A stretch of DNA of 28,057 bases from a virus: positions 1-28,057 of IMG/VR virus record IMGVR_UViG_3300043654_000028; one strand, written 5' to 3'. The translations under genes were made by a program, and so were the position numbers. The notes beneath the pieces were generated by a model, which had not been told where the DNA came from, did no database searches, and was given only the letters and a program-made list of their open reading frames with translations. The first letter of the stretch is position 1, and the number at the start of each line of letters is the position of its first letter. Of this stretch, positions 369 through 23,370 are shown piece by piece.

Positions 369-380
369 GCGATGGATCGC
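369..380 (+). promoter_or_regulatory. ANGGAN hairpin at the portal gene start (candidate CsrA site)
   Basis: A GCG stem, ATGGAT hexaloop and CGC stem (3 bp) cover 369-380. The loop matches the CsrA/RsmE consensus ANGGAN. The ATG of the longest portal frame (372) lies inside the loop. Elsewhere in the window this hairpin lies 16-20 nt ahead of the start, so the GTG at 393 fits the pattern as the true start. Confidence 0.5.
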
Positions 381-2198
381 CCGAGCCACACCGTGCCCCT
401 GACGCAAACCCTGTTTGAATCGACGCACCGGCTGCGCAATCTCTTTCGCCCGCTCACTGAATCGAAAGAGCATCAGCAGGCGCGCATGCGCGCGGGTGCT
501 GCCCAGCAAGAACTTGCCGTAGCCAAACTCAACGCCGAGGCGGCCAGCGCCCGCAAGCAAAAGACACTGTACGAATCCGCCGGCACGATGGATTTTTTCT
601 TGTCGGCTTACGTGGACCTCCTCGACCGTTACCGCGACGGCCCGAACATCACCTATCCGCTCACACAGCCCCAGGATCGCCGCTACGGGCAGAACTACCC
701 GTTTTGGGTATCAGAGCAACAGCTATCCCTCGTGCGTGCCCAGGCCCGGCTGATGACGGCGATGAACCCCTACGCGATTGGCTTGCTGACCGGGCTCGCG
801 TCGTTTGTGATCGGCAGCGGGTTCACTTACCGGGCAATGCCGAAGAAAGGCAAAGAGAACGTCGGCGATGGCCTGCTCAGCGACGTGCAAGAGGCCATTG
901 ACGAGTTCGCGGAGCTGAACGACTGGGAGGAGCTTCAGCAGGAGTTGTTTTGGCGCACGCGAGAGGACGGGGAATACTTCCTGCGGTTCTTCGACCAGGT
1001 AGACGGCGGGATTCTCGTGCTTCGCGTGATCGAGCCGGAGCAAATCACGTTGCCCCCAGGGGGGCGGTTTGAGGAATACAGCTTCGGAATCAAGACAGAT
1101 CCCGAAGATGTGATGACGCGCTACAAGTACTTTTCGCACTACAAATCCACCACGACCGCTAGCGGCGACGTGCGGCAGAACGGGTCAGCACTGCATAACG
1201 CGGGTGCTTCGGAGCTGGGGGAGGAGATTGACGCGGACTGCGTCCAGCATATGTACGTCAACACGAAGAAATCGATCAAGCGCGGGCTGACCGATTTCTC
1301 GTTCGGCGTGTTCGATTGCCTGCGCGCCGCTCAAAAGTTGGTCTTCAACTTTGGTGAGGGGGCCGCGATCCAAGCGAGCATTGCCCAGATTCGCCAGTGG
1401 GACAACGCCAGCGCATCGAGCGTCCAGCAAATGGCCGGCGCGAACACGACGTACAGCGTGGCCAATCCGATTACCGGGCAGGCGATCAACTACCAGCAGC
1501 TGGAGCCGGGCCAGATTCTCGACATTCCGCGGCAGTTGCAATACGTGCCCCCGCCGGCCTGGCAGGGCGGTGCCGCCGAATCGTTTATCTCGCTCTTGCA
1601 TGCCGAGTTACGCGGGGCTGGTACCAGGTGGAATGCTCCCGAGTGGTTAGCCACGGCCAGCGGCGCCGACATGGCCGCGTATACGGCGAGTCTGACCGCC
1701 GAGTCACCGTTCGTTAAAACGGCCGCGCGATATCAGCGACTCTACGTGCGGGTGTTTCGTGACGTGGTCAAGCGGGCGGTGGCTACGGCGGCAATGAACG
1801 ACCTGCTGCCCCAGGAAGCCGTCGACCTCGTGGACATTGAATGCACGCCGCCACGTATCGAAATGCGGGATTCCCTTGAGGAGGCTCAGGCCAACCAGAT
1901 TCGTGTTGTCGGCGGCTGGAAGGCCCCGCAACAGGTGTGCGAGGAAGAGGGGCGGCAATGGGACGAAACAAAAGTACTGATCGAGGAATATCATGAGGAC
2001 ATGGGCACCGTGTTGCCGCAATTCGAGCTGCCCAAAGAGGACGGGCCGGATGCTGGAACGGGAGTCAAGAAAATACCCATGAAAGGAGGTGCCGATACAA
2101 ACGGCGATACCTTTCGAGAATCGCTGACTGAAGACTTTGATCCAGCCAAGCATCCCCGCGGCCAGCCCGAAAACAAAGGCGTTACAAGGGGAGCGTGA
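372..2198 (+). CDS. Phage portal protein (lambda-type family)
   Basis: This is the dodecameric head-vertex channel through which DNA is packaged and to which neck proteins attach. The 608-residue length fits lambda-like portals. Visible signs are an N-terminal helical region, a segment starting NPYAIGLLTGLASFVIGSG, a central acidic region, and a C-terminal half with a WNAPEWL segment and an ARYQRLYVRVFRDVVKRA clip/crown-like helix. It is followed directly by small genes and then the Mu-F-like minor head gene, the standard head-module order. The start is uncertain: ATG 372 sits in an ANGGAN hairpin loop, and GTG 393 would give the same spacing as in other hairpin-led genes. An in-frame TGA at 345 excludes an earlier start. 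Confidence 0.87.
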   Translation: MDRPSHTVPLTQTLFESTHRLRNLFRPLTESKEHQQARMRAGAAQQELAVAKLNAEAASARKQKTLYESAGTMDFFLSAYVDLLDRYRDGPNITYPLTQPQDRRYGQNYPFWVSEQQLSLVRAQARLMTAMNPYAIGLLTGLASFVIGSGFTYRAMPKKGKENVGDGLLSDVQEAIDEFAELNDWEELQQELFWRTREDGEYFLRFFDQVDGGILVLRVIEPEQITLPPGGRFEEYSFGIKTDPEDVMTRYKYFSHYKSTTTASGDVRQNGSALHNAGASELGEEIDADCVQHMYVNTKKSIKRGLTDFSFGVFDCLRAAQKLVFNFGEGAAIQASIAQIRQWDNASASSVQQMAGANTTYSVANPITGQAINYQQLEPGQILDIPRQLQYVPPPAWQGGAAESFISLLHAELRGAGTRWNAPEWLATASGADMAAYTASLTAESPFVKTAARYQRLYVRVFRDVVKRAVATAAMNDLLPQEAVDLVDIECTPPRIEMRDSLEEAQANQIRVVGGWKAPQQVCEEEGRQWDETKVLIEEYHEDMGTVLPQFELPKEDGPDAGTGVKKIPMKGGADTNGDTFRESLTEDFDPAKHPRGQPENKGVTRGA

Positions 2199-2201
2199 CG
2201 T

Positions 2202-2330
2202 ATGCCTGACGATGTGCTGCAAGAATTGCGTGAAGAGTTTGAATCCGACCTGGACGCGTACATGAAGGAGTGGACTAAATCTCTCGCCGACAAAATTAGT
2301 GAGGGTGGCGCGGAAGGGGAAAGCGAATGA
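2202..2330 (+). CDS. Small acidic helical protein, 42 aa
   Basis: The ATG at 2202 follows a good Shine-Dalgarno (AAGGGGAG, 2186-2193) and the frame reads 42 codons to TGA 2328-2330. The product starts MPDDVLQELREEF and is charged and probably one amphipathic helix with an acidic C-terminus (GAEGESE). The stop overlaps the next start in ATGA (2327-2330), which indicates translational coupling. No family is recognised. Its position between portal and minor head protein suggests a small head-assembly accessory, but nothing in the sequence proves that. Confidence 0.6.
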   Translation: MPDDVLQELREEFESDLDAYMKEWTKSLADKISEGGAEGESE

Positions 2331-2542
2331 GCACGGACTATTGCATTCACGATTGGAGTTGCGAGCAAACCACTTTCGACAAGGATTGGGTGCGGTATGG
2401 CCTGTTTTCAGCGACCAATCCCAAGGGTGCCAAAATCATAGAGACCCGAAAGGTTTGCCGGCACTGCGGTGAACTAGGCGTCCCCGTTCCCAATCAGTCG
2501 ATGCCAAATCCGTTCTGCCGTATTCAAGCCGTCGAGGAATAA
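2327..2542 (+). CDS. Small CXXC protein, 71 aa
   Basis: It starts with the ATGA overlap at 2327 and ends 3 nt before the minor head gene. Cysteines lie at residues 6, 12, 44, 47 and 64. The core VCRHCG looks like half of a zinc ribbon, with the other ligands possibly C6/C12 or C64. It contains aromatic residues (W10, W21, Y24, F27) and no membrane segment. Function is unknown. It is one of several small CXXC proteins slotted between virion genes in this window. Coupling by overlap makes it a credible gene despite its size. Confidence 0.65.
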   Translation: MSTDYCIHDWSCEQTTFDKDWVRYGLFSATNPKGAKIIETRKVCRHCGELGVPVPNQSMPNPFCRIQAVEE

Positions 2543-2545
2543 CGT

Positions 2546-4765
2546 GTGCCCCACCGCTTCGCACAATCCCGGCTGATCGCACACGTCGGCATCCGGCAAG
2601 TGGAAGTACACTTGCGCGCCGATGCAGTGGCGGCAGCGGTGGACAACGCAATAGCGAAGCTGTGGCGGGAGACCGTGCTTGCGGGCAACCCTCAGGCGTT
2701 TGCCGCTCTTGTCGGCCACGTCGCGAGCAAGATCGACTCCCAGCTTGAGCAAATCGCCACATGGGGTTACCGCACGGCGAAGCAAGCGAAAATGTCCGCG
2801 CTGCCCACGTCGTACCTGCGGTATGTCGCCATGATCCGGGCGCGAGCGTTCTTGCGCCGTGAGCGGGTCACCATCCACGAAGCAGCTGCCGACGATATCG
2901 ACCAGGGCGGCGGGATTGAATTGCTACTAAAAGTGTTCGGGCTCGAAACAGGCAAGTCTGTTGAGCAGCAAAACGGCCACGACTTCATCCGCTCACTCTT
3001 ACAACCCGTGGACCGCCTGGCACCGCTCCGTGAGCCGGCCCGCGCGGAACTATCCGACGAACAGCAGCGGGAGTTATTCGCCAAGCTGCTCTTTCGACCG
3101 CCAACGCAAGCCCGCGTAAACGCCATCGTTTACTCGAATCTCGATGGCGAAAACTGGTCAACGCGCTGGGCTCGCGTGTCCAAACTGGCGGCACCCGAAC
3201 GGCTAGCCGATGTGGTGAGCGCTGGGTATGCCGCCGGAAAATCCCAGCGGCAGATCGCAAAAGACTTGGAGCCGATTGTGGACAACGTTCGGGTATCCGC
3301 CACACGCATAGCCCGCACCGAGGGGCTGCGCGTGGCCCACGCCACACAGATGATCACCGACCAACAGGTGAGCGAGCTGCGAGATGGTTACCAGATCCAC
3401 GCAACGCTCGACCAGAATACGCGGGCGGCACACGCGGCCCGCAACGGATCAATCTGGTACGGGACGCCGAACGTGGACGCGGCCGGCGTGCCGTCGATGC
3501 CGTTGGCCGCTAGGCACACGCTGCACATGACGGCGGCGACGTTGCCAGACGAGCCCAATTGCTTACTTCCCGGAACTCGTGTCCAGGGCGAATTCGTTGC
3601 CGGATTCAAGGCGCAGTATTCGGGGAAGGTTATCGAGTTGCGCTGTGGGAGCGGCGCGACGGTTCGGGTTACTGCTAACCACCCAATAGCGACCTCGCAG
3701 GGATTTGTCCCGGCGTACAGCCTCACGGAAGGCCAGCAGGTTTTGAGCCACGTAGTCTGTGGCAATTTTCTTTCCGACAACGAACGCTATGGCCCATCCG
3801 TGATCGAGAATGTATTTCGTGCGATCAAACAATTTTCTTGGCCCGTTTCCCATACCCCAGCCCGAAACCATTTCTATGGCGATGGCCTCTTTATGAATGG
3901 CCAAGTCGAGATTGTAGTGGCCGACAGGCCATTGCCGTTCGACCTGGATTCCAAGGATGGAGAGGGCGTCCGCGACGATGAATTCAGAGGGGTAAGCGTG
4001 AACACATTTGAGATACCGGGTGCGGGCACGTGCACACTTAACCGCCTCAGAGTCCCTACCGCCGCGTCTGGCTCGCTGGGCAGCATCGGTTTGGGTTTTG
4101 CGAATGGAAGCGGAAGCTTGCGACCATTTTACAGTCTCGGCTTCGGACCGGCTGCGAAGTTTGACGCCAGCCGCTACGATCAGACGAGTGAGACCGCTTC
4201 TCCGACTTCCGCGAGTGACGCCCAATTCGTCGGCAAGCTTCTTGAGCGATTCTCCGGCAAGGTATCGCTTGATTACGTTGTCCAGGTTCGGTGCTTCGAT
4301 TGGTCTGGGCATGTCTACGATCTCCAAGGCGTGGGCGGATGGATTGTAGCAAACAACATCGTCGTAAGCAACTGCCGCTGTGTGCTCGTCCCCGTGCTCA
4401 AGCCGGCCCACTCGATCCTTGCCGACCCCGCCAAAGTGCAAACACTCCGCAACGCGGCGGCGAAGACGATTCCGGACCCCGACGTTTACACGAGCTGGTT
4501 CGCGGCGGCCGACGAACGACGGCGCCGGCTAGCCGTGGGTGCGCGTCGTTATCAAGCGGTTGTCGATCGGGTGGGCGATAATCCCTCATGGTCGCATTTC
4601 GTCAACCCAGACACCGGCGAGTTAATGGGGCTCAAGGATTTGCGGAGCGAAAAGCCACTGGAGCGAGCCCGGCGGACGGCGGCCGTAGACCGGTTGATCG
4701 GTGATCGCCGCGAATTGCTCGCGCAGGTGCGGACGTTCGGTTTTGCCCTACCCCAACCCGTCTAA
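2546..4765 (+). CDS. Minor head protein (Mu gpF / SPP1 gp7-like), interrupted by an intein
   Basis: The GTG start at 2546 follows GAGGA (2534-2538). The 739-residue precursor consists of an N-extein (1-338), an intein (339-609) and a C-extein (610-739). The family assists head morphogenesis and binds portal or DNA. The diagnostic region is TRIARTEGLRVAHA followed by DQNTRAAHAARNG and, after splicing, PDEPN joined to CRCVLVPV. This restores the PNCRC motif typical of the family. The spliced product would be about 468 residues. The intein sits exactly at the N|C junction of that motif, the most conserved point of the protein, as is usual for inteins. The C-extein is helical and Arg-rich. Identification of family and of intein are both strong. 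Confidence 0.9.
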   Translation: MPHRFAQSRLIAHVGIRQVEVHLRADAVAAAVDNAIAKLWRETVLAGNPQAFAALVGHVASKIDSQLEQIATWGYRTAKQAKMSALPTSYLRYVAMIRARAFLRRERVTIHEAAADDIDQGGGIELLLKVFGLETGKSVEQQNGHDFIRSLLQPVDRLAPLREPARAELSDEQQRELFAKLLFRPPTQARVNAIVYSNLDGENWSTRWARVSKLAAPERLADVVSAGYAAGKSQRQIAKDLEPIVDNVRVSATRIARTEGLRVAHATQMITDQQVSELRDGYQIHATLDQNTRAAHAARNGSIWYGTPNVDAAGVPSMPLAARHTLHMTAATLPDEPNCLLPGTRVQGEFVAGFKAQYSGKVIELRCGSGATVRVTANHPIATSQGFVPAYSLTEGQQVLSHVVCGNFLSDNERYGPSVIENVFRAIKQFSWPVSHTPARNHFYGDGLFMNGQVEIVVADRPLPFDLDSKDGEGVRDDEFRGVSVNTFEIPGAGTCTLNRLRVPTAASGSLGSIGLGFANGSGSLRPFYSLGFGPAAKFDASRYDQTSETASPTSASDAQFVGKLLERFSGKVSLDYVVQVRCFDWSGHVYDLQGVGGWIVANNIVVSNCRCVLVPVLKPAHSILADPAKVQTLRNAAAKTIPDPDVYTSWFAAADERRRRLAVGARRYQAVVDRVGDNPSWSHFVNPDTGELMGLKDLRSEKPLERARRTAAVDRLIGDRRELLAQVRTFGFALPQPV
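3560..4372 (+). mobile_element. Intein in the minor head protein, 271 aa
   Basis: Block A is CLLPGTRV at the N-terminus (Cys1 from TGC 3560). Block B is ATVRVTANHPI (T-x-x-H). Block F is VYDLQGVGGWIVANN, ending IVVSN with Cys (TGC 4373) as the +1 residue. The penultimate residue is Ser, not the usual His, so splicing may be slower or use an altered C-terminal mechanism. No LAGLIDADG or HNH motif is visible in the sense linker. Instead, the opposite strand encodes a nuclease-like protein across nearly the whole intein. The sense linker (about 200 residues) has no stop but is rich in Gly, Ser, Phe and Pro, as expected if its sequence is constrained from the other strand. Confidence 0.9.
3563..4312 (-). 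CDS. Putative homing endonuclease antisense to the intein (HTH + Vsr/PD-(D/E)XK-like)
   Basis: This 249-residue frame starts at ATG 4312 (minus strand), 9 nt after a GGAG on the same strand (plus positions 4322-4325). The frame is open further upstream to 4441, but that part lies over the extein. Residues 10-60 form an HTH: KRYLAGESLKKLADELGVTR, then a segment ending GVKLRSRSEAE, as in DNA-binding parts of homing enzymes. Residues 108-180 look Vsr-like: PSEF (E110), GHYNLDLAI (D136), EAIAIEM (E147), then an Arg/Tyr-rich helix and AIAFVVG strand. The stop TAA is made by the second intein codon. Such a gene would cut intein-less alleles to spread the intein. Sense coding here is certain; antisense expression is inferred from motifs and the ribosome-binding site. 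Confidence 0.72.
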   Translation of the reverse strand: MPRPIEAPNLDNVIKRYLAGESLKKLADELGVTRGSRRSGLTRLIVAAGVKLRSRSEAETVKWSQASASIRKTQTDAAQRARRGGRDSEAVKCARARTRYLKCVHAYPSEFIVADALSILGIQVERQWPVGHYNLDLAIHKEAIAIEMVSGWGMGNGPRKLFDRTKYILDHGWAIAFVVGKKIATDYVAQNLLAFREAVRRDKSLRGRYWVVSSNPNRRAAPTAQLDNLPRILRLESGNEFALDTSSGK

Positions 4766-4770
4766 TCCGT

Positions 4771-4876: not shown

Positions 4877-6253
4877 ATGGCTACGGCCACTTCACCAAAT
4901 CGGCACGCGCGACATGCAACCAAGGATGGCGTGGGGCGCCATGGACGGCGCCCGCTTAATCGTTCCCGCTTTCGCTATCGACTGCGCATGTGCGAATCGG
5001 TTCACGCTTCGCGCCCTCTCCGCGTGGACCGCGACAAAGGGATCATCTACGGCGTCAAGATTCTCGGCTTTGAAAGCCTAAACAATCGCCGCTATCTCCC
5101 CGAGGCGATGAACGAAGCGATCAGTCTTTACGAGGGAATCGCTGTCAACATCAACCACCCCGAGGTTGAGGGGCGGCTGCCCACGGCCCAGCGCTCGAGC
5201 TACGACCGGTTCGGCCGAATCGTCAATGTCAAGTTCCTGGACGGCGAAGGGCTGTTCGGCGACCTGGAATACCTGAAATCGCATCCGATGGCCGGCATGG
5301 TTACCGAGGCGGCCGAACGCATGCCCGACGCTTTTGGGCTGTCCCACAATGCCCAGGGCGAGGGCGACACGGACAACGCCGGCACGTTCGTTATCCACAA
5401 AATCACAGAGGTCCGCTCCGTGGACGTGGTTGCTGACGCGGCCACTAACCGGAGCCTATCCGAATCAAGGACGGTCATTATGGAAACTGCCGCGCTTACC
5501 AAGCAAGAGAAAATTGACCTCGTGAACGAGCTGACCGAGGCCAAGACCGTGACCGCAAAAGCCGGCAAAAAACTGCTGGCACTGTGCGAGGCGGAAAGCC
5601 AGTACCACGATCACATTTTCAACGCCATGAAGTCGCTGCATGAGGCGGGCATGGACGGCGACGAAACGGCCGCCGACAAGATGAAGGCCTTGTGCAAGTC
5701 GCTCACCGCGGACCACGTGAGCAACACGGGCGAATCGGACAATGATGACAAGGGCGACGAAGGCGGCGGCGGCAACGCCAAGCATAAAGTCGGCCTGGAT
5801 GAGGACGAGGAAGACATCGACCGCGAGCGCGAGGACGACGACAAGTCGCGCACGAAGGGCGGCGACAAGGTCGAGAGCCGCAAGCGGCGATCACGCGATA
5901 ACGAGATCAGCGAAATTCGCGGCGAGCTGCTAAGGCTCAAGCTCGAAAAGAAAGCGCGCGTCGCGTGCGAGGCCAAGGGCATTCCGGCAACCGAGGCCCT
6001 GATCGAATCGTTGACCGACCTGGGCAGCGAAGCGAAGATCAACCGGTATTTGACCCAGCTCGTGGAAATGGGTCTGGGCGGGAATGGCGGCCAGCAACGG
6101 CCCGGCGTTCGTCATGGCCTGGGGGGCTCGAAGCCGCGTAGCCGTTCGCAGGTTATGCCGGTCCCCGAAAGCCGCGGCGGGAACTACGGCGGCATGAATA
6201 TCCCGACCGATCCCAGCAAGCCCGAGGAGCTGGCGAACTTTTTGTTGAACTGA
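4877..6253 (+). CDS. Prohead protease with C-terminal scaffold domain
   Basis: The gene encodes 458 residues; ATG 4877 follows GAG and ATG 4988 (residue 38) is an alternative. Residues about 45-195 are the protease: VDRDKGIIYGVKILG, INHPE (candidate His94), the segment DAFGLSHNAQG (candidate Ser156), then ITEVRSVDVVADAATN, the usual end of prohead serine proteases. Residues 202-458 are scaffold-like: charged and helical, with a Gly/acidic stretch near 285-320 and a basic coiled segment after it. Protease-scaffold fusions shape the capsid shell and digest the core before packaging. Its place directly before decoration and capsid genes fits. The exact peptidase family is not certain. Confidence 0.75.
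   Translation: MATATSPNRHARHATKDGVGRHGRRPLNRSRFRYRLRMCESVHASRPLRVDRDKGIIYGVKILGFESLNNRRYLPEAMNEAISLYEGIAVNINHPEVEGRLPTAQRSSYDRFGRIVNVKFLDGEGLFGDLEYLKSHPMAGMVTEAAERMPDAFGLSHNAQGEGDTDNAGTFVIHKITEVRSVDVVADAATNRSLSESRTVIMETAALTKQEKIDLVNELTEAKTVTAKAGKKLLALCEAESQYHDHIFNAMKSLHEAGMDGDETAADKMKALCKSLTADHVSNTGESDNDDKGDEGGGGNAKHKVGLDEDEEDIDREREDDDKSRTKGGDKVESRKRRSRDNEISEIRGELLRLKLEKKARVACEAKGIPATEALIESLTDLGSEAKINRYLTQLVEMGLGGNGGQQRPGVRHGLGGSKPRSRSQVMPVPESRGGNYGGMNIPTDPSKPEELANFLLN
5480..6253 (+). CDS. Internal in-frame scaffold protein (predicted)
   Basis: ATG 5480 is in frame with the protease and follows AAGGA (5467-5471) by 8 nt. This is a better ribosome-binding site than that of the full gene. It lies precisely after the protease domain ends (residue 202 of the long product). 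Translation from here would give a free scaffold of 257 residues, starting METAALTKQEKIDLVNELTE, as Nu3 is made inside lambda gene C. The separate product is an inference from the site and the domain boundary. Confidence 0.55.
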   Translation: METAALTKQEKIDLVNELTEAKTVTAKAGKKLLALCEAESQYHDHIFNAMKSLHEAGMDGDETAADKMKALCKSLTADHVSNTGESDNDDKGDEGGGGNAKHKVGLDEDEEDIDREREDDDKSRTKGGDKVESRKRRSRDNEISEIRGELLRLKLEKKARVACEAKGIPATEALIESLTDLGSEAKINRYLTQLVEMGLGGNGGQQRPGVRHGLGGSKPRSRSQVMPVPESRGGNYGGMNIPTDPSKPEELANFLLN

Positions 6254-6292
6254 GCGGGGCGGATTACACCGCAACGAATCACGATACTCCGG

Positions 6293-6306
6293 CGCGATGG
6301 ATCGCG
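6293..6306 (+). promoter_or_regulatory. ANGGAN hairpin upstream of the decoration gene
   Basis: A CGCG stem, ATGGAT hexaloop and CGCG stem (4 bp) are followed by a possible G-U pair. The GGA lies 17 nt before the GTG start at 6319. There is no other Shine-Dalgarno in between. Candidate CsrA-family binding site. Confidence 0.65.
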
Positions 6307-6318
6307 TGAGTTATAACC

Positions 6319-7125
6319 GTGAGTGCAAATTTCGGTGGTTTCCGTTTCCAGTACCCGCAAGGCACGCAGTTTGCGCGGTACTTGGCTCCGGCCAGCCTGC
6401 AGATCAGCCAAGGTGACCTGCTTTACTGGACAGGCTCCGTGGCCCAACCCCTGTCGGCCAAAGCGATCCTGGGCACCCAGGTACTCGACCAGGCAGCTAT
6501 CGCCGCCGGCTTGTTTTTGGGCGCGTGCATGAGTGGTCGCATCGCCTCCCAAGCCGGCTCTGTCTGGCCGGCCGACTCCATCGACGTGGTTGCGGACACC
6601 CCCTATCTCGCCGACTGCGCAAGCGCCACGTTCGAAGAAGGCGACCTTGTGGGCGTTGTTCGCAACGTCGGCAACACGGCCTTGCAGGATCAAAACGTCG
6701 TGGGCGTAGTCAACCCCGCACTGGCCATCGGCCGCGTTATTCGTCGCGAGCCGGTTGCGGTAACGTCGGTTCTCATTCAGCTTTTTGGCAAAAACACCTG
6801 GCAGGGCGTGCCCAACAACCAGTCAATGTTCGCCCGCCAGGGCAACGGTGTAACGGCCCTGGCGGATTCCAACGGCGCTGTCGATCACACGATGGGGCCA
6901 ATCCTGACAATGGTTCCCACGGCGGCCCGAAACCAGACACTGCCCGTGGAAGCGCAAAGCAAGGGACTGGGCTTCGAGTTCACGAACAACAGTGCGGGCG
7001 CGTTCGCCGTAACTTTCCAGAGCTCCGCCGCTGGCGCCATCAAGGGCAATGGCGTGGTGCCCCAAAACAAGACGGCCATCCTCTGGTGCGATGGCACCAA
7101 CTGGACTGGCCTGGTCAGCGCGTAA
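6319..7125 (+). CDS. Capsid decoration/cement protein candidate
   Basis: The 268-residue product (GTG start, VSANFGGFRF) sits between scaffold and major capsid genes, the standard place of the head-stabilising protein. The N-terminal half (GDLLYWTGSVAQPL, GDLVGVVRNVG, VVNPALAIGRVIRRE) resembles the beta-rich DUF2190-type cement proteins that bind capsid trimers. The C-terminal 90 residues (TNNSAGAFAVTFQSSAAG, then ILWCDGTNWTGL) form a second beta domain, perhaps surface exposed. The start is chosen because GTG 6319 follows the hairpin at the same distance as in the capsid gene. The family assignment is moderate; the structural role follows mostly from gene order. Confidence 0.6.
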   Translation: MSANFGGFRFQYPQGTQFARYLAPASLQISQGDLLYWTGSVAQPLSAKAILGTQVLDQAAIAAGLFLGACMSGRIASQAGSVWPADSIDVVADTPYLADCASATFEEGDLVGVVRNVGNTALQDQNVVGVVNPALAIGRVIRREPVAVTSVLIQLFGKNTWQGVPNNQSMFARQGNGVTALADSNGAVDHTMGPILTMVPTAARNQTLPVEAQSKGLGFEFTNNSAGAFAVTFQSSAAGAIKGNGVVPQNKTAILWCDGTNWTGLVSA

Positions 7126-7144
7126 GCGACGTACACAATCCTCC

Positions 7145-7160
7145 CGGTGATGGATCACCG
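7145..7160 (+). promoter_or_regulatory. ANGGAN hairpin upstream of the major capsid gene
   Basis: A CGGTG stem, ATGGAT hexaloop and CACCG stem give 5 perfect pairs. The GGA lies 17 nt before ATG 7172, the same spacing as for the decoration gene. Together with 17725-17740, it is the longest stem of the set and precedes the most expressed virion gene. Confidence 0.7.
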
Positions 7161-7171
7161 CGGATGCAACG

Positions 7172-8554
7172 ATGGCTGTGAATATCATGAAGGTCCGCGG
7201 GTTGTACGAGTCCTACCGCGGACAGCCCGGCGGGCGCGGCCGACTGGCGTTCCGCAACACGCTTCGGCAGCAGCTGGGCCTGTGCGATCAGAACGGCAAC
7301 GACTACCGCAATCGCAACGGCGACCGGTGTGTCAAGAACGCTCAGCTCAAACCGGAAGATTTCTCGTTGCAGGAGCTGGCGGAAGCCGTGGTAGGGCCGG
7401 CATGGCGGGTGTTCTTCGATCCGACGAACGAGGGCAGCTTGCAGCAGCTCGCGAGCCATAACCGTCTCGTGGAATCGCAGTACGTCGGCGACAACCGGGC
7501 ATTGCTCGAAGCCACGGGCGTGGGTGTCGATCCCGGGGCATTCCTGGATATCAACACGTTCACGGCGGTTGTCGGCGGCCTGGTCGAGGTCAAGATCCTC
7601 GAAAACTTCCAGAGCCCGAAATTCATAGCCGACGAACTCATGCCGGTTGAACAAACGAAACTCAACGGCCAAAAAATCATCAACGCGGCCCGGATCGGCG
7701 ATAAGGCAATCCGTCGCCAACCTGGCGAACCGCACGCACGCGCCGTATTCGGTGAGCGTTTTGTGTCGACGCCGGCCACTCGAGAAAATGCGCTCGCCAT
7801 CGACGTAACCAAAGAAGCCGTGTTCTACGACTTGACTGGCAACGTGCTCAACGTAGCCGGCGACGTGGGCGAGTGGTTGGGCTACCGCAAAGAACTGGAC
7901 GTGATTGACGCCTTCATCGGCGTAACCAGCGGCTCCAGTGGCGTGTCTGCACTGAGCTACATGGGCACGGCCTACGGGATGTATTCGACCAGCCAAACAA
8001 TCGGCAAGTCAACGATTATCAATCAACAGTCGAACGATCTGCTCGACTGGACGGCCATTGAATCGAGCTGGTTGCTTTCGCAGCGCATGACCGACCCGGA
8101 AACCGCCACCCGCATCGGCGTGATGTACGACACGATCCTAGTGAACCCGGCGAAGCTCAATACGGCGATCCTGATCCTGGGTGCCATCCGCACCGAGGTG
8201 CGCACGACCGGCGGCAACACGCAGGCCACGGCCCCGACATTGCAGATTCGCGACACGCCCAGCGCGCCGTACACGAACGCTTCAATCAAGGTGCTGAGTT
8301 CGCCGCTCGTGGAACAACGCTGCACGGATGCCAGCGGGCTCAATTTGAGCCAGGCAAACGCCAACAAATACTGGTGGCATTTCCAGAAGGGGCGGCCTTT
8401 CCGGTACATGCAGAATTGGCCACTAACTACATGGCAATTCTCCGGTAATCAATACGAGATGCTCGACAAGGGCATTGTAGCAACTTATGGGGCTAACGAA
8501 CGCGGAATCGCGGCGAGTATTTCGCCGTGGCACGTGGTCGAGAACACGAACTAA
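7172..8554 (+). CDS. Major capsid protein (HK97-fold)
   Basis: The product is 460 residues. The first about 110 residues are helical and could be a delta-like internal scaffold or N-arm. Then come LVEVKILENFQSPKFIADELM, GERFVSTPATRENAL, and EAVFYDLTGNVLNVAGDVGEWLGYRKELDVIDAFIG, a pattern of E-loop, spine helix and P-domain typical of major capsid proteins. The C-terminal part (WHFQKGRPFRYMQNWPL) includes the A-domain sheet. Its position after protease/scaffold and decoration genes supports the call. The start ATG 7172 (MAVNIMK) lies after the hairpin; ATG 7164 is out of frame. It would form the icosahedral shell. Confidence 0.82.
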   Translation: MAVNIMKVRGLYESYRGQPGGRGRLAFRNTLRQQLGLCDQNGNDYRNRNGDRCVKNAQLKPEDFSLQELAEAVVGPAWRVFFDPTNEGSLQQLASHNRLVESQYVGDNRALLEATGVGVDPGAFLDINTFTAVVGGLVEVKILENFQSPKFIADELMPVEQTKLNGQKIINAARIGDKAIRRQPGEPHARAVFGERFVSTPATRENALAIDVTKEAVFYDLTGNVLNVAGDVGEWLGYRKELDVIDAFIGVTSGSSGVSALSYMGTAYGMYSTSQTIGKSTIINQQSNDLLDWTAIESSWLLSQRMTDPETATRIGVMYDTILVNPAKLNTAILILGAIRTEVRTTGGNTQATAPTLQIRDTPSAPYTNASIKVLSSPLVEQRCTDASGLNLSQANANKYWWHFQKGRPFRYMQNWPLTTWQFSGNQYEMLDKGIVATYGANERGIAASISPWHVVENTN

Positions 8555-8557
8555 GAG

Positions 8558-8584
8558 GCGCGGTGACGCGCGGGATGGAACCGG
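8558..8584 (+). promoter_or_regulatory. GTGA-tetraloop hairpin and weak ANGGAN hairpin after the capsid gene
   Basis: A GCGCG stem, GTGA (GNRA-type) loop and CGCGC stem lie at 8558-8571. They are followed at 8571-8584 by CGGG, ATGGAA, CCGG, where only three of four pairs form. The second loop is ANGGAN and its GGA is 5 nt before ATG 8585, so it also acts as a normal Shine-Dalgarno. Confidence 0.4.
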
Positions 8585-8780: not shown

Positions 8781-8794
8781 GCGGATGGACCCGC
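8781..8794 (+). promoter_or_regulatory. ANGGAN hairpin upstream of gene at 8806
   Basis: A GCGG stem, ATGGAC hexaloop and CCGC stem give 4 perfect pairs. The GGA lies 16 nt before the GTG start at 8806. It begins one base after the upstream stop codon. Confidence 0.6.
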
Positions 8795-9366: not shown

Positions 9367-9630
9367 ATGCATCCGTCCCTCAAAACGCGGGTTGTCCACA
9401 AGCACGGAGCCGATGGCATCGGTTCGGGCCGGCTCAAGCTACGCCTGGAAAACGGGCAAGCAATCAGCATCGGCGACGACATCAAGGTTACGCTATCGCT
9501 CGACCTGGGCAAGGCTCACTTGATTATCGAGGCACCGCGAACCCTCCGCGTGTGCCGTCTGGGAGACGAAGAGAGCGACGAAAACATAGAGAACACTTCG
9601 GCCGATGGAGCGGCTTTGAAGGCGAGCTGA
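9367..9630 (+). CDS. CsrA/RsmA-like RNA-binding protein, divergent, 87 aa
   Basis: Residues 22-65 align to CsrA: LKLRLENGQAISIGDDIKV matches the start of CsrA up to its IGDEVTV segment, followed by HLIIEAPRTLRVCRL at the APKEVxVHR position. CsrA Leu4, the G9/I14/G15/D16 turn, A36-P37 and the RNA-contacting Arg44 have counterparts; Arg6 does not (Leu). It has a 21-residue N-terminal extension and an acidic, Asn-rich C-terminal tail of about 20 residues. CsrA dimers bind ANGGAN hairpin loops in mRNA and block or aid translation. It sits inside the virion operon, 1 nt after the previous stop. Which RNAs it binds is an inference from the hairpins listed in this window. Confidence 0.68.
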   Translation: MHPSLKTRVVHKHGADGIGSGRLKLRLENGQAISIGDDIKVTLSLDLGKAHLIIEAPRTLRVCRLGDEESDENIENTSADGAALKAS

Positions 9631-10575: not shown

Positions 10576-10632
10576 GACCGCGAAGCGAAGGAGCGCTACC
10601 AGATGACCGCCGATCACGTCCACATCTTTGGC

Positions 10633-10827
10633 TTAACGCCGGCCGATCAAATTGTGCACGCTCTGAAGCGCCTCGATTCGCTCCTCAAGCCGCGTTACCC
10701 GGTTCTGCAATCCCTGCTCGTCTTCGTGAACTTTGGTTGGCTCTGGCGCTCGCGAATCGGCGACGAGAAACCCGCCAGCGATTCCGATTACGAGGGCGGC
10801 AAGAGCGGCTGCAATGTGCTTCTTCAT
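10633..10827 (-). CDS. Small membrane-anchored coiled-coil protein, 64 aa (reverse strand)
   Basis: The start ATG 10827 follows AGAGGA on the minus strand. Residues MKKHIAAALAALVIGIAGGF form a signal anchor or signal peptide. They are followed by a polar stretch (DSRAPEPTKVHEDEQ) and a heptad-like segment (LQNRVTRLEERIEALQSV). Type II membrane topology with an exterior coiled coil resembles spanin or superinfection-exclusion type phage proteins, but no family is recognised. It has its own promoter and opposes the late genes, so it may be expressed at a different time, for example in lysogeny. Confidence 0.7.
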   Translation of the reverse strand: MKKHIAAALAALVIGIAGGFLVADSRAPEPTKVHEDEQGLQNRVTRLEERIEALQSVHNLIGRR

Positions 10828-10864
10828 GGGTCGATCCTCTTGGGTGATAAACAAGACGAACCCC

Positions 10865-10870
10865 ATTATA
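10865..10870 (-). promoter_or_regulatory. -10 element TATAAT for the reverse-strand gene
   Basis: A perfect TATAAT lies on the minus strand, 37 nt before ATG 10827. A weak -35 candidate (CTGGCA) sits 14 nt further upstream, closer than ideal. Transcription would begin near 10858. Confidence 0.6.
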
Positions 10871-10905
10871 CACGAACAGCTGCGTGCCAGCTGCGCTAAA
10901 ACGAA

Positions 10906-15042: not shown

Positions 15043-15056
15043 CCCGAAGGATCGGG
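15043..15056 (+). promoter_or_regulatory. ANGGAN hairpin upstream of the neck gene
   Basis: A CCCG stem, AAGGAT hexaloop and CGGG stem give 4 perfect pairs, starting right after the previous stop. The GGA lies 20 nt before ATG 15072. Confidence 0.65.
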
Positions 15057-15071
15057 GATTGACGCAATGGA

Positions 15072-15830
15072 ATGCAGCTCGATCTATCGCAAGACTTTGA
15101 CACGATCGACGATCTGGAGCCGATCCGCTACACGTCCGTGCGGCTCTCCGGATCGATGCAAGCGGCGCTACCACGCTGCAAGCGGCGTGCACTCACTCGC
15201 AAGGAACTGGCGGCCAGCGGCGGTGTCTACCAAGCCAATGACGTGGCGTTGCTCACGAGTTGGAGGCAGATACAGGGGCTTGCTTCGCAAGGGAGGGAAC
15301 CGAAACCCGGGGACACCTGGCAATCGGGCGGCGACACGCCGGCAAGCGGTACGGGCGGGCCACCCGCCACCTACACCGTTCTGGAAGTTACCGGCGGCAA
15401 GCGTGACGGTTCCGGGCATTACCAGACGTGGCGACTTACTTCCCGCAACCTCGTGCTTGCGTTCGATCTCCAGGACACGATTGATATTCAGCTGCCCACC
15501 ATCATTTACGACGCGGCGGGTACGGCAATCCGAACGTGGCCGGAGAATGGCGCGGGACAGACTATCTATCCGGGGCTGGCCGCCCGCGTGCAACTGATCT
15601 CGGACGACACGGTTGACGAGCGCGGCATCCGCGGTTTTGTCGGCAACTACGCGGTGATTGTGGCAACCCAGGTTCCCGCCGTGACGATGGAGGCCCGGAT
15701 ACGCTGGCCGGCGGTGAGCAAGACGCGGCCGGGCATCGACACGGTGCAGTATCTGGACATCAAGGGCGTGCACAACCCGAGTAGGATTGATGAATTGCCG
15801 GTTCTTGATGCGTTGCTACCGCCGTTATAA
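15072..15830 (+). CDS. Head-tail connector/neck-region protein candidate, 252 aa
   Basis: ATG 15072 gives MQLDLSQDFDTIDDLEPIRY; ATG 15067 is out of frame. There is an N-terminal helical segment, then TYTVLEVTGGKRDGSGHYQTW, then a beta region (LVLAFDLQDTIDIQLPTIIY), and a C-terminal stretch that ends DIKGVHNPSRIDELPVLDALL. The gene lies just before an HK97-gp10-like gene, where head-closure proteins are usually encoded. Family membership is not clear, and the call rests mainly on order. The ANGGAN hairpin at 15043 leads this gene. Confidence 0.5.
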   Translation: MQLDLSQDFDTIDDLEPIRYTSVRLSGSMQAALPRCKRRALTRKELAASGGVYQANDVALLTSWRQIQGLASQGREPKPGDTWQSGGDTPASGTGGPPATYTVLEVTGGKRDGSGHYQTWRLTSRNLVLAFDLQDTIDIQLPTIIYDAAGTAIRTWPENGAGQTIYPGLAARVQLISDDTVDERGIRGFVGNYAVIVATQVPAVTMEARIRWPAVSKTRPGIDTVQYLDIKGVHNPSRIDELPVLDALLPPL

Positions 15831-17724: not shown

Positions 17725-17740
17725 TGGCGAAGGACCGCCA
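17725..17740 (+). promoter_or_regulatory. ANGGAN hairpin upstream of the major tail gene
   Basis: A TGGCG stem, AAGGAC hexaloop and CGCCA stem give 5 perfect pairs. The GGA is 34 nt before ATG 17769. A separate strong Shine-Dalgarno (GGGAGG, 17755-17760) lies nearer the start, so here the hairpin does not serve as the ribosome-binding site. Confidence 0.68.
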
Positions 17741-17768
17741 TTAACCCCGACGCAGGGAGGCAAACACT

Positions 17769-18236: not shown

Positions 18237-18250
18237 GCCGAAGGATCGGC
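18237..18250 (+). promoter_or_regulatory. ANGGAN hairpin upstream of the tail chaperone gene
   Basis: A GCCG stem, AAGGAT hexaloop and CGGC stem give 4 perfect pairs. The GGA lies 31 nt before ATG 18277. No good Shine-Dalgarno stands between them. Confidence 0.62.
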
Positions 18251-18276
18251 AGCCCGCGAAAGCGTACACCCCTCTT

Positions 18277-18753: not shown

Positions 18754-19022
18754 CGTTACCGGCGGGGCGGACGAACTGGCGCACGGTCGAGTGGTTTCTG
18801 ATGAGCGCGGAACATGGCCCACATTTTCGCCCGTGGGAAATAGGGCTGCTGACGCTTGCCGAGATCACGCTGTTGATGGAAGACGGAACGCCGAAGCCAG
18901 ATACCGGCAAGGTGATGGGCGGGAGCGGAACCACGCGAGAACAGGCAATTGCGTACCGCAATTGGATTTTAGGCATGAGCCCGGCGGAACGACTCGCTCA
19001 CGCACGGGTGGGAGAATTGTGA
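18277..19022 (+). CDS. Tail assembly chaperone GT fusion made by -1 frameshift, about 248 aa
   Basis: The zero frame is read to AAC at 18730-18732 (152 codons). A slip of -1 at G GGA AAC then continues at CGA 18732-18734 and reads 96 more residues to the TGA at 19020-19022. The added part (WEIGLLTLAEITLLMEDG, AYRNWILGMSPAERLA) is T-like and could not start well by itself; ATG 18801 is an internal alternative without a good ribosome-binding site. The ratio of G to GT in lambda-like phages matters for tail length. The fusion is predicted, not shown. Confidence 0.78.
18726..18768 (+). promoter_or_regulatory. -1 programmed ribosomal frameshift signal
   Basis: The heptamer G GGA AAC (18726-18732) is in the correct phase for X-XXY-YYZ. 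Six nt later, GCCCCGGCGG (18739-18748) pairs with CCGGCGGGGC (18759-18768) with one mismatch. The spacing and stem suit a stimulatory structure. Lambda's own site is GGGAAAG. Confidence 0.85.
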
Positions 19023-19023
19023 A

Positions 19024-20313: not shown

Positions 20314-20333
20314 CCTGTGCCGTGATGTGCTAA

Positions 20334-20347
20334 CGCGAAGGATCGCG
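20334..20347 (+). promoter_or_regulatory. ANGGAN hairpin upstream of the distal tail gene
   Basis: A CGCG stem, AAGGAT hexaloop and CGCG stem give 4 perfect pairs. The GGA lies 20 nt before ATG 20363. No other Shine-Dalgarno is visible in that leader. Confidence 0.65.
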
Positions 20348-20362
20348 AGCTAGTCCCACGCC

Positions 20363-21418
20363 ATGCCCCTACCCATAGAGCAGCAAGTTGGCATCGACGG
20401 CCAGACGTACAACGTTCTTGTAACGGAGAATTCTGTCCCGTCCGTTTTTCCGTCCGGCAATTCGGGGCCGATCCAAATACCGTATCTCGAGCTGCTGACC
20501 TACCGCGAGCGCGGCAGCCGCATGGGCGACGACACAGAATCAACCCGCACGTGCCTGTGTATGTGGGAGCAACGGTTGCCGTTTCTCTTGGCGATGCTGG
20601 GGACAAGTACCCGCGTGCCCCCGCAAGGTCAGAACGGCGCGCCGTTCATTACCCGGTTGCTCCCGGAAGAACACCCCGAGCTCGTCGGCCTCTTTGCTAC
20701 GCAATACGAGTTGAGCGGCCAGCTGGGCGTGCCCACGCAGGACCGTGGGAATCTGATACGCGCCCTGCAATCCACGCCGGCTTTCTCCGGGCCGGCCGGG
20801 ACGCCACCGCTCACGCAAACGAACCCGCTTTCAAACATGGTGAGCTTCAGCCTGGCTCAATATGAGATCACGTACCGGCCATTCGACTACGTTTTCGACA
20901 CCGATCAAAACATGTCGAAAAACCCGACAGGCGAGTTAAGCCGGTTCGTAAGCCGGTACGTCGATCCAAGCGCCGAAGCGTTAGTTATCCCCGGCAACGC
21001 GGCTAAGTGGGTTTCTGATGGCACATTGATTCCAGAGCCGCCAGCAATCCCGCAACCGATCCTCGAATACCAATATGTCTGGCATGACGTGCCCGGCGGC
21101 CAGTTCGGCCAGTTTTTGCCGGCATTCGAGCCGCTGGTAGGCACATGCAACCAGCTCGCGTTTGATCCGCAAGGATTTAACTGCGCGCCCCAAACATTGC
21201 TTTGCCAAGCCCCGAAACTCAAATGGCATTTCACGGCAAGCGGGGATATCGTTTGGGACATCACTTATATATTCACGTTCAAGAGCTGGACGCACAACGC
21301 AATCTATCGCCGTGCGATTGGTGGCAACGGCCCACCCGGGTATGACCCCGTTTCGCTCACGAACGGACAGCCGGTGATCCCAACGATGGATTTCGCTGAG
21401 TTGTTCCTGATTTCCTAA
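20363..21418 (+). CDS. Tail tip/distal tail protein candidate, 351 aa
   Basis: It follows the tape measure, as distal tail and hub genes do. Visible: GIDGQTYNVLVTENSVPSVF, TRLLPEEHPELVGLFATQYE, MVSFSLAQYEITYRPFDYVF, then beta segments ending GDIVWDITYIFTFKSW and MDFAELFLIS. The sequence is beta-rich with Tyr/Phe/Pro and lacks motifs I can name. The role is inferred from order. It is led by an ANGGAN hairpin. Confidence 0.5.
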   Translation: MPLPIEQQVGIDGQTYNVLVTENSVPSVFPSGNSGPIQIPYLELLTYRERGSRMGDDTESTRTCLCMWEQRLPFLLAMLGTSTRVPPQGQNGAPFITRLLPEEHPELVGLFATQYELSGQLGVPTQDRGNLIRALQSTPAFSGPAGTPPLTQTNPLSNMVSFSLAQYEITYRPFDYVFDTDQNMSKNPTGELSRFVSRYVDPSAEALVIPGNAAKWVSDGTLIPEPPAIPQPILEYQYVWHDVPGGQFGQFLPAFEPLVGTCNQLAFDPQGFNCAPQTLLCQAPKLKWHFTASGDIVWDITYIFTFKSWTHNAIYRRAIGGNGPPGYDPVSLTNGQPVIPTMDFAELFLIS

Positions 21419-21430
21419 TCGCAAACCGAT

Positions 21431-22171
21431 ATGCCACGCGACCGCTATAACCCTGTTTCGCTCGGCTTCTTGCAACAGTTGTCGATTGCCGATCTCGATC
21501 ACATGCAAGAGACGGCGGCGGCCACGTCGCGGCCGGCGGCGGGTAGCAATGGCGTTGCGTGCAAGATCAATAGTGGGGGATTGACGGTTGCGCTCACTGC
21601 GCCGCGCAAATTCATGGCCAAGATTACGGCTTATGATTTCAGCCAAACGCCGGCGATGTACGCTTTCAGCGAGGTCGCTTCGCAGAACGACGGGACATAC
21701 AAGACGTTTGTTGACGGCGTTACCACAACGATCCTGCAAGCAGGACAAAAACAACCGTGGGGAGCCTACGAAGACAACGGCGGGTTCGCCCAGGTGGGCA
21801 CCATCGTCCGCATGCGCAACGAAGCGGGTGAAGTGTTCCGGTTTTCTTACTCGCCGCCGGACCTTTTCGTTTCCCCTAATAATCTAACGCCCGTAATTCC
21901 AGGTGTTCCCAACCTGTACGATGCCACGCTGTACAACCTGGCGGTAACCGGTGGCTTTCCCGGATTCAAGAGCTTAGGAACGTGCTGGGCTACGTTTTAC
22001 ATGCAAGTGGCGGGCAACGCCGTTCCAACCGTTGGAGATTTTTACCGGGCGAGTTTTTGCACGGGCGCGGAGTACAACGGTTCTTGGCGACCGCAATTCT
22101 TCGCGGATGGGCCGGTGATAATCGGCGGCGGCCAGTGCGTGAGCGGCGGTATCCAACTGAATTCGTGGTGA
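21431..22171 (+). CDS. Tail-associated virion protein, 246 aa
   Basis: The start MPRDRYNPVSLGFLQQLSIA follows 12 nt after the previous stop. It has a short N-terminal helix, then a Gly/Thr/Asn-rich beta protein (GVACKINSGGLTVALTAPRK, GTIVRMRNEAGEVFRFSY, GGGQCVSGGIQLNSW at the end). This composition suits a tail fibre, receptor-binding or tip-associated protein. No enzyme motif or signal peptide is seen. It is probably a structural protein of the tail tip. Confidence 0.5.
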   Translation: MPRDRYNPVSLGFLQQLSIADLDHMQETAAATSRPAAGSNGVACKINSGGLTVALTAPRKFMAKITAYDFSQTPAMYAFSEVASQNDGTYKTFVDGVTTTILQAGQKQPWGAYEDNGGFAQVGTIVRMRNEAGEVFRFSYSPPDLFVSPNNLTPVIPGVPNLYDATLYNLAVTGGFPGFKSLGTCWATFYMQVAGNAVPTVGDFYRASFCTGAEYNGSWRPQFFADGPVIIGGGQCVSGGIQLNSW

Positions 22172-22174
22172 TGT

Positions 22175-22570
22175 ATGCCGGGCTCGATTATCATTCCGGA
22201 TTGTGGCTGCTGCGGCGCACCGATCCCATGCGGTCTGTGTCTCGCCACTCCGGTGGACATCCCGGTAACGATATCTGGAATGGGTTGCGGGCTCGACGGC
22301 ATAACCAACCTTGCAGCCAACACACCTAGCCAAGGCGGCCCCGCGTGCAGGTGGTCAGCTCAATTGGCCGGTTACGGTCTCATATTGCAGATGGGAAGCG
22401 AACTAGGGCAAGTGTTCGTGGAGTTGTTTATCCAACAGGGAGCTAAGCAAATTATTTACTTCCTGAATGCCCCGGGGAATCCGATTGACTGCACGGCCAC
22501 GTACACGCTCGTCTTCGGCAATAGCACGAATTGGACGTGTGGATCACCCGTAACGGTGCAACTGAATTGA
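22175..22570 (+). CDS. Cysteine-rich hypothetical protein, 131 aa
   Basis: ATG 22175 lies 3 nt after the previous stop. The N-terminus DCGCCGAPIPCGLCLATP carries five cysteines within 17 residues, followed by a beta-type domain (LILQMGSELGQVFVELFIQQ, IIYFLNAPG, YTLVFGNSTNWTC). The cysteine cluster resembles those in planctomycete phage tail-region proteins seen by memory, but I cannot name a family. It may coordinate metal or form disulphides in a virion protein. Confidence 0.55.
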   Translation: MPGSIIIPDCGCCGAPIPCGLCLATPVDIPVTISGMGCGLDGITNLAANTPSQGGPACRWSAQLAGYGLILQMGSELGQVFVELFIQQGAKQIIYFLNAPGNPIDCTATYTLVFGNSTNWTCGSPVTVQLN

Positions 22571-22905
22571 ACATCCAGGTGTGCCGATATCGGCTAGAGA
22601 TCGCCGCGACCGATTGTTTGTGCACTTCCACGCATTTTGTTCGTGGACGCGTGCCGCTCTCGTTTTGCGCAATTTGTAAAAAGGCTGACTTACCAAGAGA
22701 CCGCGAAGCAACGGCCGCCCCCGCTCCCACACCGTGTGCCCACCTGGGGCAGCCCACGGGCGTGACACGCGAGTGCCCGACGTGCGCCGGCAATGTCCGT
22801 GTCAAGCTAATGACGTGCGCCGTTCATGGGGCGTGCACACCGATCAAGGCGGTTGCCGGCGTTGCGTGTTGCCAGGGGTGCAGGGATTTCACTTGCGAAT
22901 CCTAG
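22567..22905 (+). CDS. Cysteine-rich multi-zinc-finger-like protein, 112 aa
   Basis: TTG 22567 overlaps the previous stop (TTGA), like the start at 9030. GTG 22579 is an alternative, and TTG 22531 would extend it into the previous gene. Cysteine pairs include C17/C19, C34/C37, C70/C73, C84/C90 and C101/C102/C105/C110 (RECPTCAG, VACCQGCRDFTC). Several zinc ribbons or a disulphide knot are possible. No signal peptide is seen, so zinc is more likely. No function is assigned. Confidence 0.58.
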   Translation: MNIQVCRYRLEIAATDCLCTSTHFVRGRVPLSFCAICKKADLPRDREATAAPAPTPCAHLGQPTGVTRECPTCAGNVRVKLMTCAVHGACTPIKAVAGVACCQGCRDFTCES

Positions 22906-22996
22906 ACTTTCGCCGCAAAATGCCATCGGTTCACGCACCACGTTCGATCGGCTCGACGCACCACACGCAACAGAGCCTATTCGCAGGTAAGCCGGC

Positions 22997-23039
22997 CACG
23001 CCGTCCACGATAACCGCTTTTGCCATACCCTCACGCAAA
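22997..23039 (+). promoter_or_regulatory. 43-nt repeated noncoding element, copy B (candidate promoter)
   Basis: It matches 4771-4813 with the same three conserved blocks and ends 63 nt before ATG 23103, the same distance as copy A to ATG 4877. A CTTG at the same offset downstream is also shared. Its 3' neighbour is a holin-like gene, so it may drive the lysis genes. Confidence 0.65.
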
Positions 23040-23102
23040 AATCCTTCCCCCAGCCCGCGGCAGCACCTTGCGTGCGCGGCCCCCGTCAGCGACAACGAAC
23101 GC

Positions 23103-23345
23103 ATGGACTTCAACGCGCTTGTGCAGTCCGCCGGATTTCCGACCGCGTGCGTGGCCGTCATCGGCTTGGCATTGTGGAAAACGCTGCGGTGGTTGGCTCC
23201 GAGATTCGAAAAAGTTATGGACCGACACATTGCGTTTGTGGATCGCACGGAGACGCTACTAACGAACACGTCAAAGAAAGTTGACGACATTCACGAGGTA
23301 GTTACCGCGTCCGGCTGGCAGACGCACAAGGCAACTGGCGGCTAG
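23103..23345 (+). CDS. Small membrane protein with cytoplasmic helix (holin-like), 80 aa
   Basis: ATG 23103 (MDFNALVQSAGFPTACVAVI) is chosen because the 43-nt element precedes it by exactly the same distance as in copy A. The frame is open further upstream, but that part would be coded in the 43-nt element itself. One membrane helix lies at about residues 10-26 (AGFPTACVAVIGLALW), then a basic step (KTLRWLAPRF) and an amphipathic tail (VDRTETLLTNTSKKVDDIHE). It resembles class III or short holins and the XhlA-type proteins. A holin role is inferred from topology and place. Confidence 0.55.
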   Translation: MDFNALVQSAGFPTACVAVIGLALWKTLRWLAPRFEKVMDRHIAFVDRTETLLTNTSKKVDDIHEVVTASGWQTHKATGG

Positions 23346-23356
23346 CGCCCGCGCTC

Positions 23357-23370
23357 GAAGAAGGAGCTTC
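23357..23370 (+). promoter_or_regulatory. ANGGAN hairpin at the ribosome-binding site of gene 23374
   Basis: A GAAG stem, AAGGAG hexaloop and CTTC stem give 4 perfect pairs. The loop is also the Shine-Dalgarno, with the GGA 8 nt before GTG 23374. This would directly hide or present the ribosome-binding site. Confidence 0.6.

Follow-up and report, generated by a model that had tools for sequence, protein, structure and literature searches.

Here, we describe a set of RNA hairpins in the IMG/VR virus record IMGVR_UViG_3300043654_000028, analysed as a whole (28,057 bases, 60% GC; hereafter the window). Its plus strand carries eleven hairpins with an ANGGAN hexaloop, mostly in the leaders of virion genes, and two genes for proteins of the CsrA family, csrA1 and csrA2, sit in the same run of genes as these leaders. 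We consider it probable that a phage-encoded CsrA controls, and most likely represses, the translation of virion genes through the leader hairpins. The preliminary description of this DNA had already proposed CsrA-type control of virion translation, and our analysis of the sequence supports that proposal. We infer, rather than observe, the binding itself, the action of the phage's own CsrA over that of the host, repression over activation, and the purpose of the control. If true, this system would show a captured bacterial regulator tuning virion stoichiometry post-transcriptionally. The genome itself lists about ten sites of the high-affinity type before its own, mostly particle, genes, so that the question is directly testable.

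Number, placement and anatomy of the hairpins

A hairpin was defined as an ANGGAN hexaloop closed by a stem of at least four Watson-Crick pairs. By this definition the plus strand of the window holds 11 hairpins against 0.51 expected (1000 dinucleotide-preserving shuffles, maximum 3), and the minus strand holds none against 0.34 expected from the same shuffles. The enrichment over composition-matched shuffles, on which the preliminary description had made its proposal depend, is therefore overwhelming, and its rough chance rate of one hairpin per 65 kb per strand agrees with our shuffles (about one per 55-80 kb). Furthermore, 11 of the 106 plus-strand ANGGAN sites (10.4%) carry a stem, compared with 0.50% for hexamers in general (binomial 9e-12), whereas 0 of the 47 minus-strand sites do; the enrichment is found at loop length six. 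When we scanned the window and 15 other phage genomes de novo (loops of 4 to 8 nt, every tetramer word and the X.YZW classes), the A.GGA hexaloop ranked first in the window (P 9e-12), and no word in the 15 other phages was better than about 1e-6. The shuffles, the loop-class controls, the opposite strand and the 15 other phages rule out a chance origin of the hairpins.

The eight perfect hairpins first described are all present, and three that were absent from that list (loops at 4941, 9605 and 10588) also have at least four Watson-Crick pairs (Table 1). In this enlarged set, 10 of the 11 hairpins lie at most 60 nt upstream of a start, in leaders that make up 8.5% of the window (P 2e-10), in keeping with the placement originally noticed. 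The open reading frame (ORF) behind one of these ten (10588) is doubtful, because a minus-strand ORF overlaps it. Five hairpins, one fewer than previously counted, have their GGA 16-20 nt from the start; in the other leaders the distance is 8, 10, 24, 31 and 34 nt. The 3-bp hairpin at 369 is real (369-380) and its loop includes the portal ATG (372); near 8571, where a weak hairpin had been listed, there is indeed a site, yet it forms just 2 pairs. The leader of 17769 has a second ANGGAN-type site, which is the Shine-Dalgarno sequence (SD) itself (17754-17759, AGGGAG). No CsrB-like sponge RNA, with hairpins clustered between genes, was seen in the window.

The loops follow the consensus A[A/T]GGA[T/C/G], with AAGGA in 6 of the 11 and ATGGAN in 5. 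All four inner stem pairs vary by double changes under this constant loop, as the preliminary description had noted in part; full pairing was, however, itself a selection criterion, so that the weight lies on the enrichment and not on the covariation. Stems and flanks are unrelated among the hairpins, which are thus not copies of one element. Small mobile palindromes (REP-like), dispersed and landed by accident in leaders, would be a most improbable source: a relative of this phage does have a different palindrome family in the leaders of the same genes (L026, see below), but the window hairpins share the loop alone, without stems or flanks, and every copy points the same way. The closing pair is G-C in 10 of the 11 hairpins, against 36% of the other hairpins of the window (P 2.6e-4). 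In 8 of the 11 leaders the hairpin is part of the predicted minimum-free-energy (MFE) fold. The MFEs of the leaders are ordinary (z -1.6 to 0.3), indicating that the stability of the whole leader is not the selected trait.

The hairpins could also work independently of any CsrA, either by showing an SD-like loop to the ribosome or as stabilisers or processing-site marks of the late mRNA. Six of the 11 loops are of the AAGGA type, most hairpin genes lack another SD, and hairpins at the 5' end are widely used to stabilise mRNAs. Nevertheless, we find such a role quite unlikely, as the five ATGGAN loops would be poor SDs and the 16-34 nt spacing exceeds what an SD allows. Stability by itself would not explain why A1 and GGA3-5 of the loop are fixed while the stems vary, and the enrichment at loop length six also speaks against such a role.

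Table 1. Hairpins and csrA genes of the window, and hairpins of Escherichia phage PTXU04
Feature	Position	Strand	Context
csrA1, CsrA family, 87 aa	9367..9630	+	PF02599, 31.3 bits (cut-off 27)
csrA2, CsrA family, 72 aa	16541..16759	+	PF02599, 32.2 bits (cut-off 27)
GCG[ATGGAT]CGC, weak, 3 bp	369..380	+	holds portal start codon; second copy at 62-73 in duplicated contig end
GGGCGCC[ATGGAC]GGCGCCC, 7 bp, C-G closing, loop 4941	4934..4953	+	inside longest protease ORF 4877-6253, 42 nt before alternative ATG 4988
GCGCG[ATGGAT]CGCGT, loop 6297	6292..6307	+	leader, 17 nt before GTG 6319 (decoration-like gene)
CGGTG[ATGGAT]CACCG, loop 7150	7145..7160	+	leader, 17 nt before ATG 7172 (putative major capsid protein)
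GCGG[ATGGAC]CCGC, loop 8785	8781..8794	+	leader, 16 nt before GTG 8806 (conserved small head/neck-region gene)
GGCCG[ATGGAG]CGGCT, loop 9605	9600..9615	+	in csrA1 3' end, 24 nt before ATG 9634; outside MFE fold
AGCG[AAGGAG]CGCT, loop 10588, SD-like	10584..10597	+	precedes doubtful ORF 10603-10899; outside MFE fold
CCCG[AAGGAT]CGGG, loop 15047	15043..15056	+	leader, 20 nt before ATG 15072 (neck/tail gene)
GCA[ATGGAA]TGC, 3 bp, loop 15067	15064-15075	+	second ANGGAN hairpin in 15072 leader, spans start codon
TGGCG[AAGGAC]CGCCA, loop 17730	17725..17740	+	leader, 34 nt before ATG 17769 (putative major tail protein)
GCCG[AAGGAT]CGGC, loop 18241	18237..18250	+	leader, 31 nt before ATG 18277 (putative tail assembly gene)
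CGCG[AAGGAT]CGCG, loop 20338	20334..20347	+	leader, 20 nt before ATG 20363 (tail gene after tape measure)
GAAG[AAGGAG]CTTC, loop 23361	23357..23370	+	loop is SD of GTG 23374 (8 nt); outside MFE fold
PTXU04 hairpins	30445, 35883, 31816, 48747	-	CsrA-type, on csrA strand

The CsrA-like proteins and the proposed reading of the hairpins

Both genes that had been called CsrA-like, at 9367 and 16541, pass the Pfam PF02599 cut-off. They are both far under the NCBIfam CsrA equivalog cut-off and are thus divergent members of the family. A phmmer search of the PDB with the CsrA2 protein found RsmE (2jpp, 1.9e-4). The AlphaFold2 monomer models of the two proteins are modest (pLDDT 63-64). The top 10 Foldseek matches of the CsrA2 model in the PDB are all CsrA, RsmA or RsmE, and the top two of the CsrA1 model are CsrA (best 5z38), with a probability of 1.00 but an E of 0.12-0.25. 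Residues were numbered against E. coli CsrA, in which the canonical RNA contacts are Arg6/Arg7 (beta 1) and Arg44 (beta 5). CsrA2 retains the equivalents Arg6, Lys7 and Arg44. Position 5, a Thr in the family, is Arg in both CsrA1 and CsrA2; in the matched motif of the phage CsrAs of 80 other contigs it is Thr or Ser, Asn once and Arg never. The csrA2 leader contains AAAGGATGGATGG and ACGGAT.

In the NMR study of RsmE, the high-affinity target was defined as a stem topped directly by an ANGGAX hexaloop, and Thr5 contacts the closing C-G pair at its guanine (PMC4005645). The earlier identification of the ANGGAN loop as a CsrA/RsmE target fits this published consensus (PMC4005645), and the window hairpins match its ANGGAX-on-stem part exactly. 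Ten of the 11 lack its C-G closing pair, which is a family preference and not a strict requirement: the closing pair (G-C) and residue 5 (Arg) both differ, which suggests a matched change of RNA and protein. A possible, if doubtful, extension of this idea is a private Csr circuit, in which a CsrA pair changed from Thr5 to Arg would have co-evolved with the switch of the closing pair from C-G to G-C in nearly all leaders, and one phage regulator would govern the entire virion operon free of cross-talk with the host CsrA. If true, this circuit would amount to an RNA-protein code shaped by co-evolution, and would make this phage CsrA the first with a regulon of its own structural genes. The combination of Arg5 and G-C pairing is a lead to orthogonal CsrA-RNA pairs.

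In the mechanism that we propose, the hairpins would be the binding sites of a CsrA-family protein, most likely CsrA2, with or without CsrA1. Bound just upstream of the ribosome-binding region, or on it, this protein would hold back the translation of the head, neck and tail genes, and the synthesis of virion proteins would thereby be timed or balanced within one long late operon. Repression is the likeliest effect, since the 30S footprint would overlap with a CsrA dimer on a hairpin 8-20 nt ahead of a start. CsrA could instead activate or stabilise the virion mRNAs, by shielding them from RNase E or by aiding 30S loading. CsrA-mediated activation and stabilisation are known, the hairpin leaders often have no separate SD and their stems sequester none, and the hairpin genes are those expected to be the most highly expressed late. 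We nevertheless judge activation somewhat unlikely: at 23374 the loop is the SD itself, 8 nt from the start, which is the classical geometry of repression, and a dimer bound at the five sites at 16-20 nt, on the margin of the 30S footprint, would be expected to be an obstacle.

The identity of the reader is a separate issue. The host CsrA might read the hairpins and tie virion translation to host physiology, with the phage CsrAs acting elsewhere, for instance on host mRNAs. The loop fits the general CsrA consensus, some canonical contacts are missing from CsrA1, and manipulation of the host has been proposed as a role of phage CsrAs. However, the G-C closing in 10 of 11 hairpins together with Arg at that contact position in both CsrAs would fit a private partner, and the sister phages, presumably living in similar hosts, lack the hairpins, so that reading by the host protein seems unlikely.

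Several points weigh against control of virion translation by a phage-encoded CsrA. CsrA1 is without two of the canonical RNA contacts (Leu at position 6 and Glu at position 7), with Arg44 retained, and 3 of the 11 hairpins stand outside the predicted MFE fold. Most window leaders carry one hairpin, whereas two or more sites are present in many of the mRNAs known as CsrA targets. Several hairpin leaders have no other SD; what would be blocked there is not obvious, and activation keeps its share of the probability for this reason. Finally, the hairpin set is confined to this phage: it is missing from other csrA-bearing relatives, and when relatives and control phages (0.95 Mb) were searched with a covariance model of the hairpin, no match exceeded chance (best E 0.37).

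The system can be compared with several known ones. It resembles the targets of CsrA, RsmA and RsmE (the hcnA leader, the RsmZ stem-loops) in the ANGGAX hexaloop on a stem, the position in a leader near the ribosome-binding site and the small five-strand CsrA fold. It differs from them in the nature of the targets, here phage virion genes, in the phage-encoded regulator, in the single hairpin per leader, and in having G-C in place of the C-G closing pair and Arg in place of Thr at residue 5. RsmQ, the CsrA homologue of plasmid pQBR103, is likewise a CsrA-family protein on a mobile element; it favours GGA at the top of hairpins and rewires the host (PMC9928087). Unlike RsmQ, which rewires host mRNAs, the CsrAs of the window have the structural genes of their own element as predicted targets. 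csrA genes are found in roughly 1% of phages (PMC7366521), and the targets proposed for phage CsrAs are host processes. Our literature searches returned no description of a phage CsrA that targets structural genes of the phage itself.

Translational repressors of other kinds are familiar in phages: the coat protein of RNA phages on its hairpin, and RegA, gp32 and gp43 of T4, limit the translation of structural or replication genes. As predicted for the window, they involve a protein on a leader hairpin or a start region that limits translation. Unlike it, they act on one or a few genes (several early ones for RegA), not on about nine mostly virion leaders, and do not have the CsrA fold.

Related phages and other phages carrying csrA

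We fetched 80 capsid relatives, of which the nearest four, at 71% identity, represent two lineages (L024-L026 and L027). No relative above 71% capsid identity was found with portal, capsid, tail and CsrA2 queries, and no prophage was found in cellular genomes. Some 80 capsid relatives, the window left out, hold 29 such hairpins on the plus strand against about 22 expected. Conservation of the loops in related phages, to which the preliminary description had pointed, thus fails for the set as a whole, both in these counts and with the covariance model, and among the genomes compared the hairpin set is lineage-specific. No alternative loop motif stands out in the other csrA-bearing relatives.

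A possible relic was noticed in L024-L027: at the place of the window's 7-bp hairpin, close to the start of their orthologue of gene 4877-6253, all four carry GATC[ACGGAC]GATC. At the syntenic place of csrA2, L027 has a csrA-like gene, 43% identical locally, in which Arg44 is replaced (IQN instead of ITR); this copy was missed by the Pfam search and recovered by a direct search. L026 has no csrA2 gene. L026, without csrA2, and L027, without Arg44, are both hairpin-less. With the window, this makes three lineages in which hairpins accompany only a csrA2 that seems competent to bind RNA; the contrast is small yet pointed.

Very divergent Csr-like genes recur elsewhere in this phage group. Two CsrA-like proteins encoded in virion modules, L027 17929-18120 and F116p47 (33363-33569, NC_006552), have an Arg44 region of the form EGT(L/V)IQN. 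Such proteins are presumably not canonical RNA binders, and may form a CsrA-derived subfamily.

Long palindromes of AGTGG/CCACT repeats are found in three gene leaders of L026 (16760-16830, 18605-18670 and 19180-19250), with predicted energies of -43 to -58 kcal/mol per stretch of about 105 nt, and the genes concerned are orthologous to hairpin-bearing genes of the window. These palindromes are a different family of leader hairpins at the same places as the window hairpins. The family is weaker in L024, L025 and L027, where it precedes the capsid gene; L026 has unstructured CACTCACCACTAC repeats before its capsid gene.

Beyond the relatives, an independent parallel is found in the unrelated Escherichia phage PTXU04 (MK373772): four ANGGAN hairpins against about 0.4 expected, each of them on the strand that bears csrA. 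Two of the four precede the holin-csrA pair and gene 00036, one at 9 nt and the other at 23 nt from a gene start, and these are kept in the phages Pondi (91.6% DNA identity) and Bas95 (85%). Knock-down of csrA in PTXU04 led to smaller plaques, in a 2025 study which stated that no earlier work had tested what CsrA does in the life cycle of a phage (PMC11879866). With PTXU04, CsrA autoregulation and lysis timing can be tested in a phage accessible to the laboratory. The csrA genes of PTXU04 (gene 00028) and of Pseudomonas phage F116, where F116p47 sits in a virion module, are phage-encoded as in the window; unlike the window, PTXU04 has four hairpins only, and F116 has none over chance. F116, phi297, VvAW1, 431E45.1 and PSTCR8lys were rejected as parallels, having no strong hairpin enrichment.

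In 80 IMG/VR csrA contigs, the csrA strand holds 52 hairpins against 21.5 expected and the other strand 19 against 20.8, a strand excess that is indicative only, since these contigs are redundant. Their distinct hairpins, in the company of Thr/Ser5 CsrAs, have 18 C-G and 8 G-C closing pairs; for the window these numbers are 1 and 10 (Fisher P 0.001).

Gene identification and other features of the window

The window starts at the portal gene, so that the record is probably a fragment. Family matches were obtained for the portal (PHROG 3e-26), the MuF head protein (Pfam 1e-9) and the tape measure (PHROG 5e-7). Gene 7172 had no family match, and is the putative major capsid protein from its position and its 45-71% conservation across related phages. 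The decoration, neck, major tail and tail assembly genes owe their names to inferences from gene order. Bases 1 to about 230 recur nearly exactly at about 308-540, and bases 228-310 at about 640-722, the portal start being duplicated; this duplicated contig end (window 1-720) is probably an assembly artefact or a terminal redundancy.

The operon is otherwise on the plus strand, with a lone minus-strand ORF at 10633-10866, which has a good SD and the look of a signal anchor and a coiled coil. It overlaps ORF 10603-10899, and one of the two must therefore be spurious. The MuF gene (2546-4765) encodes an intein (Hint) domain, and a further minus-strand ORF, 3563-4441, lies opposite the middle of this domain. 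In another phage, L074, a homologue (28% identity, E 2e-19) is likewise antisense to an intein, at 6536-7375 on the minus strand, inside MuF ORF 5690-7750. The two antisense ORFs encode 279-292 aa with an N-terminal helix-turn-helix, and the window copy weakly matches REase_MTES_1575/DUF559. The ORF at 3563-4441 thus looks like a homing endonuclease encoded opposite its intein, which would place both strands under constraint; a literature search returned no case of a homing endonuclease encoded antisense to its own intein. Lastly, 26310-27164 encodes a papain-family cysteine protease (Peptidase_C1, E 8.5e-31), an unusual cargo for a phage.

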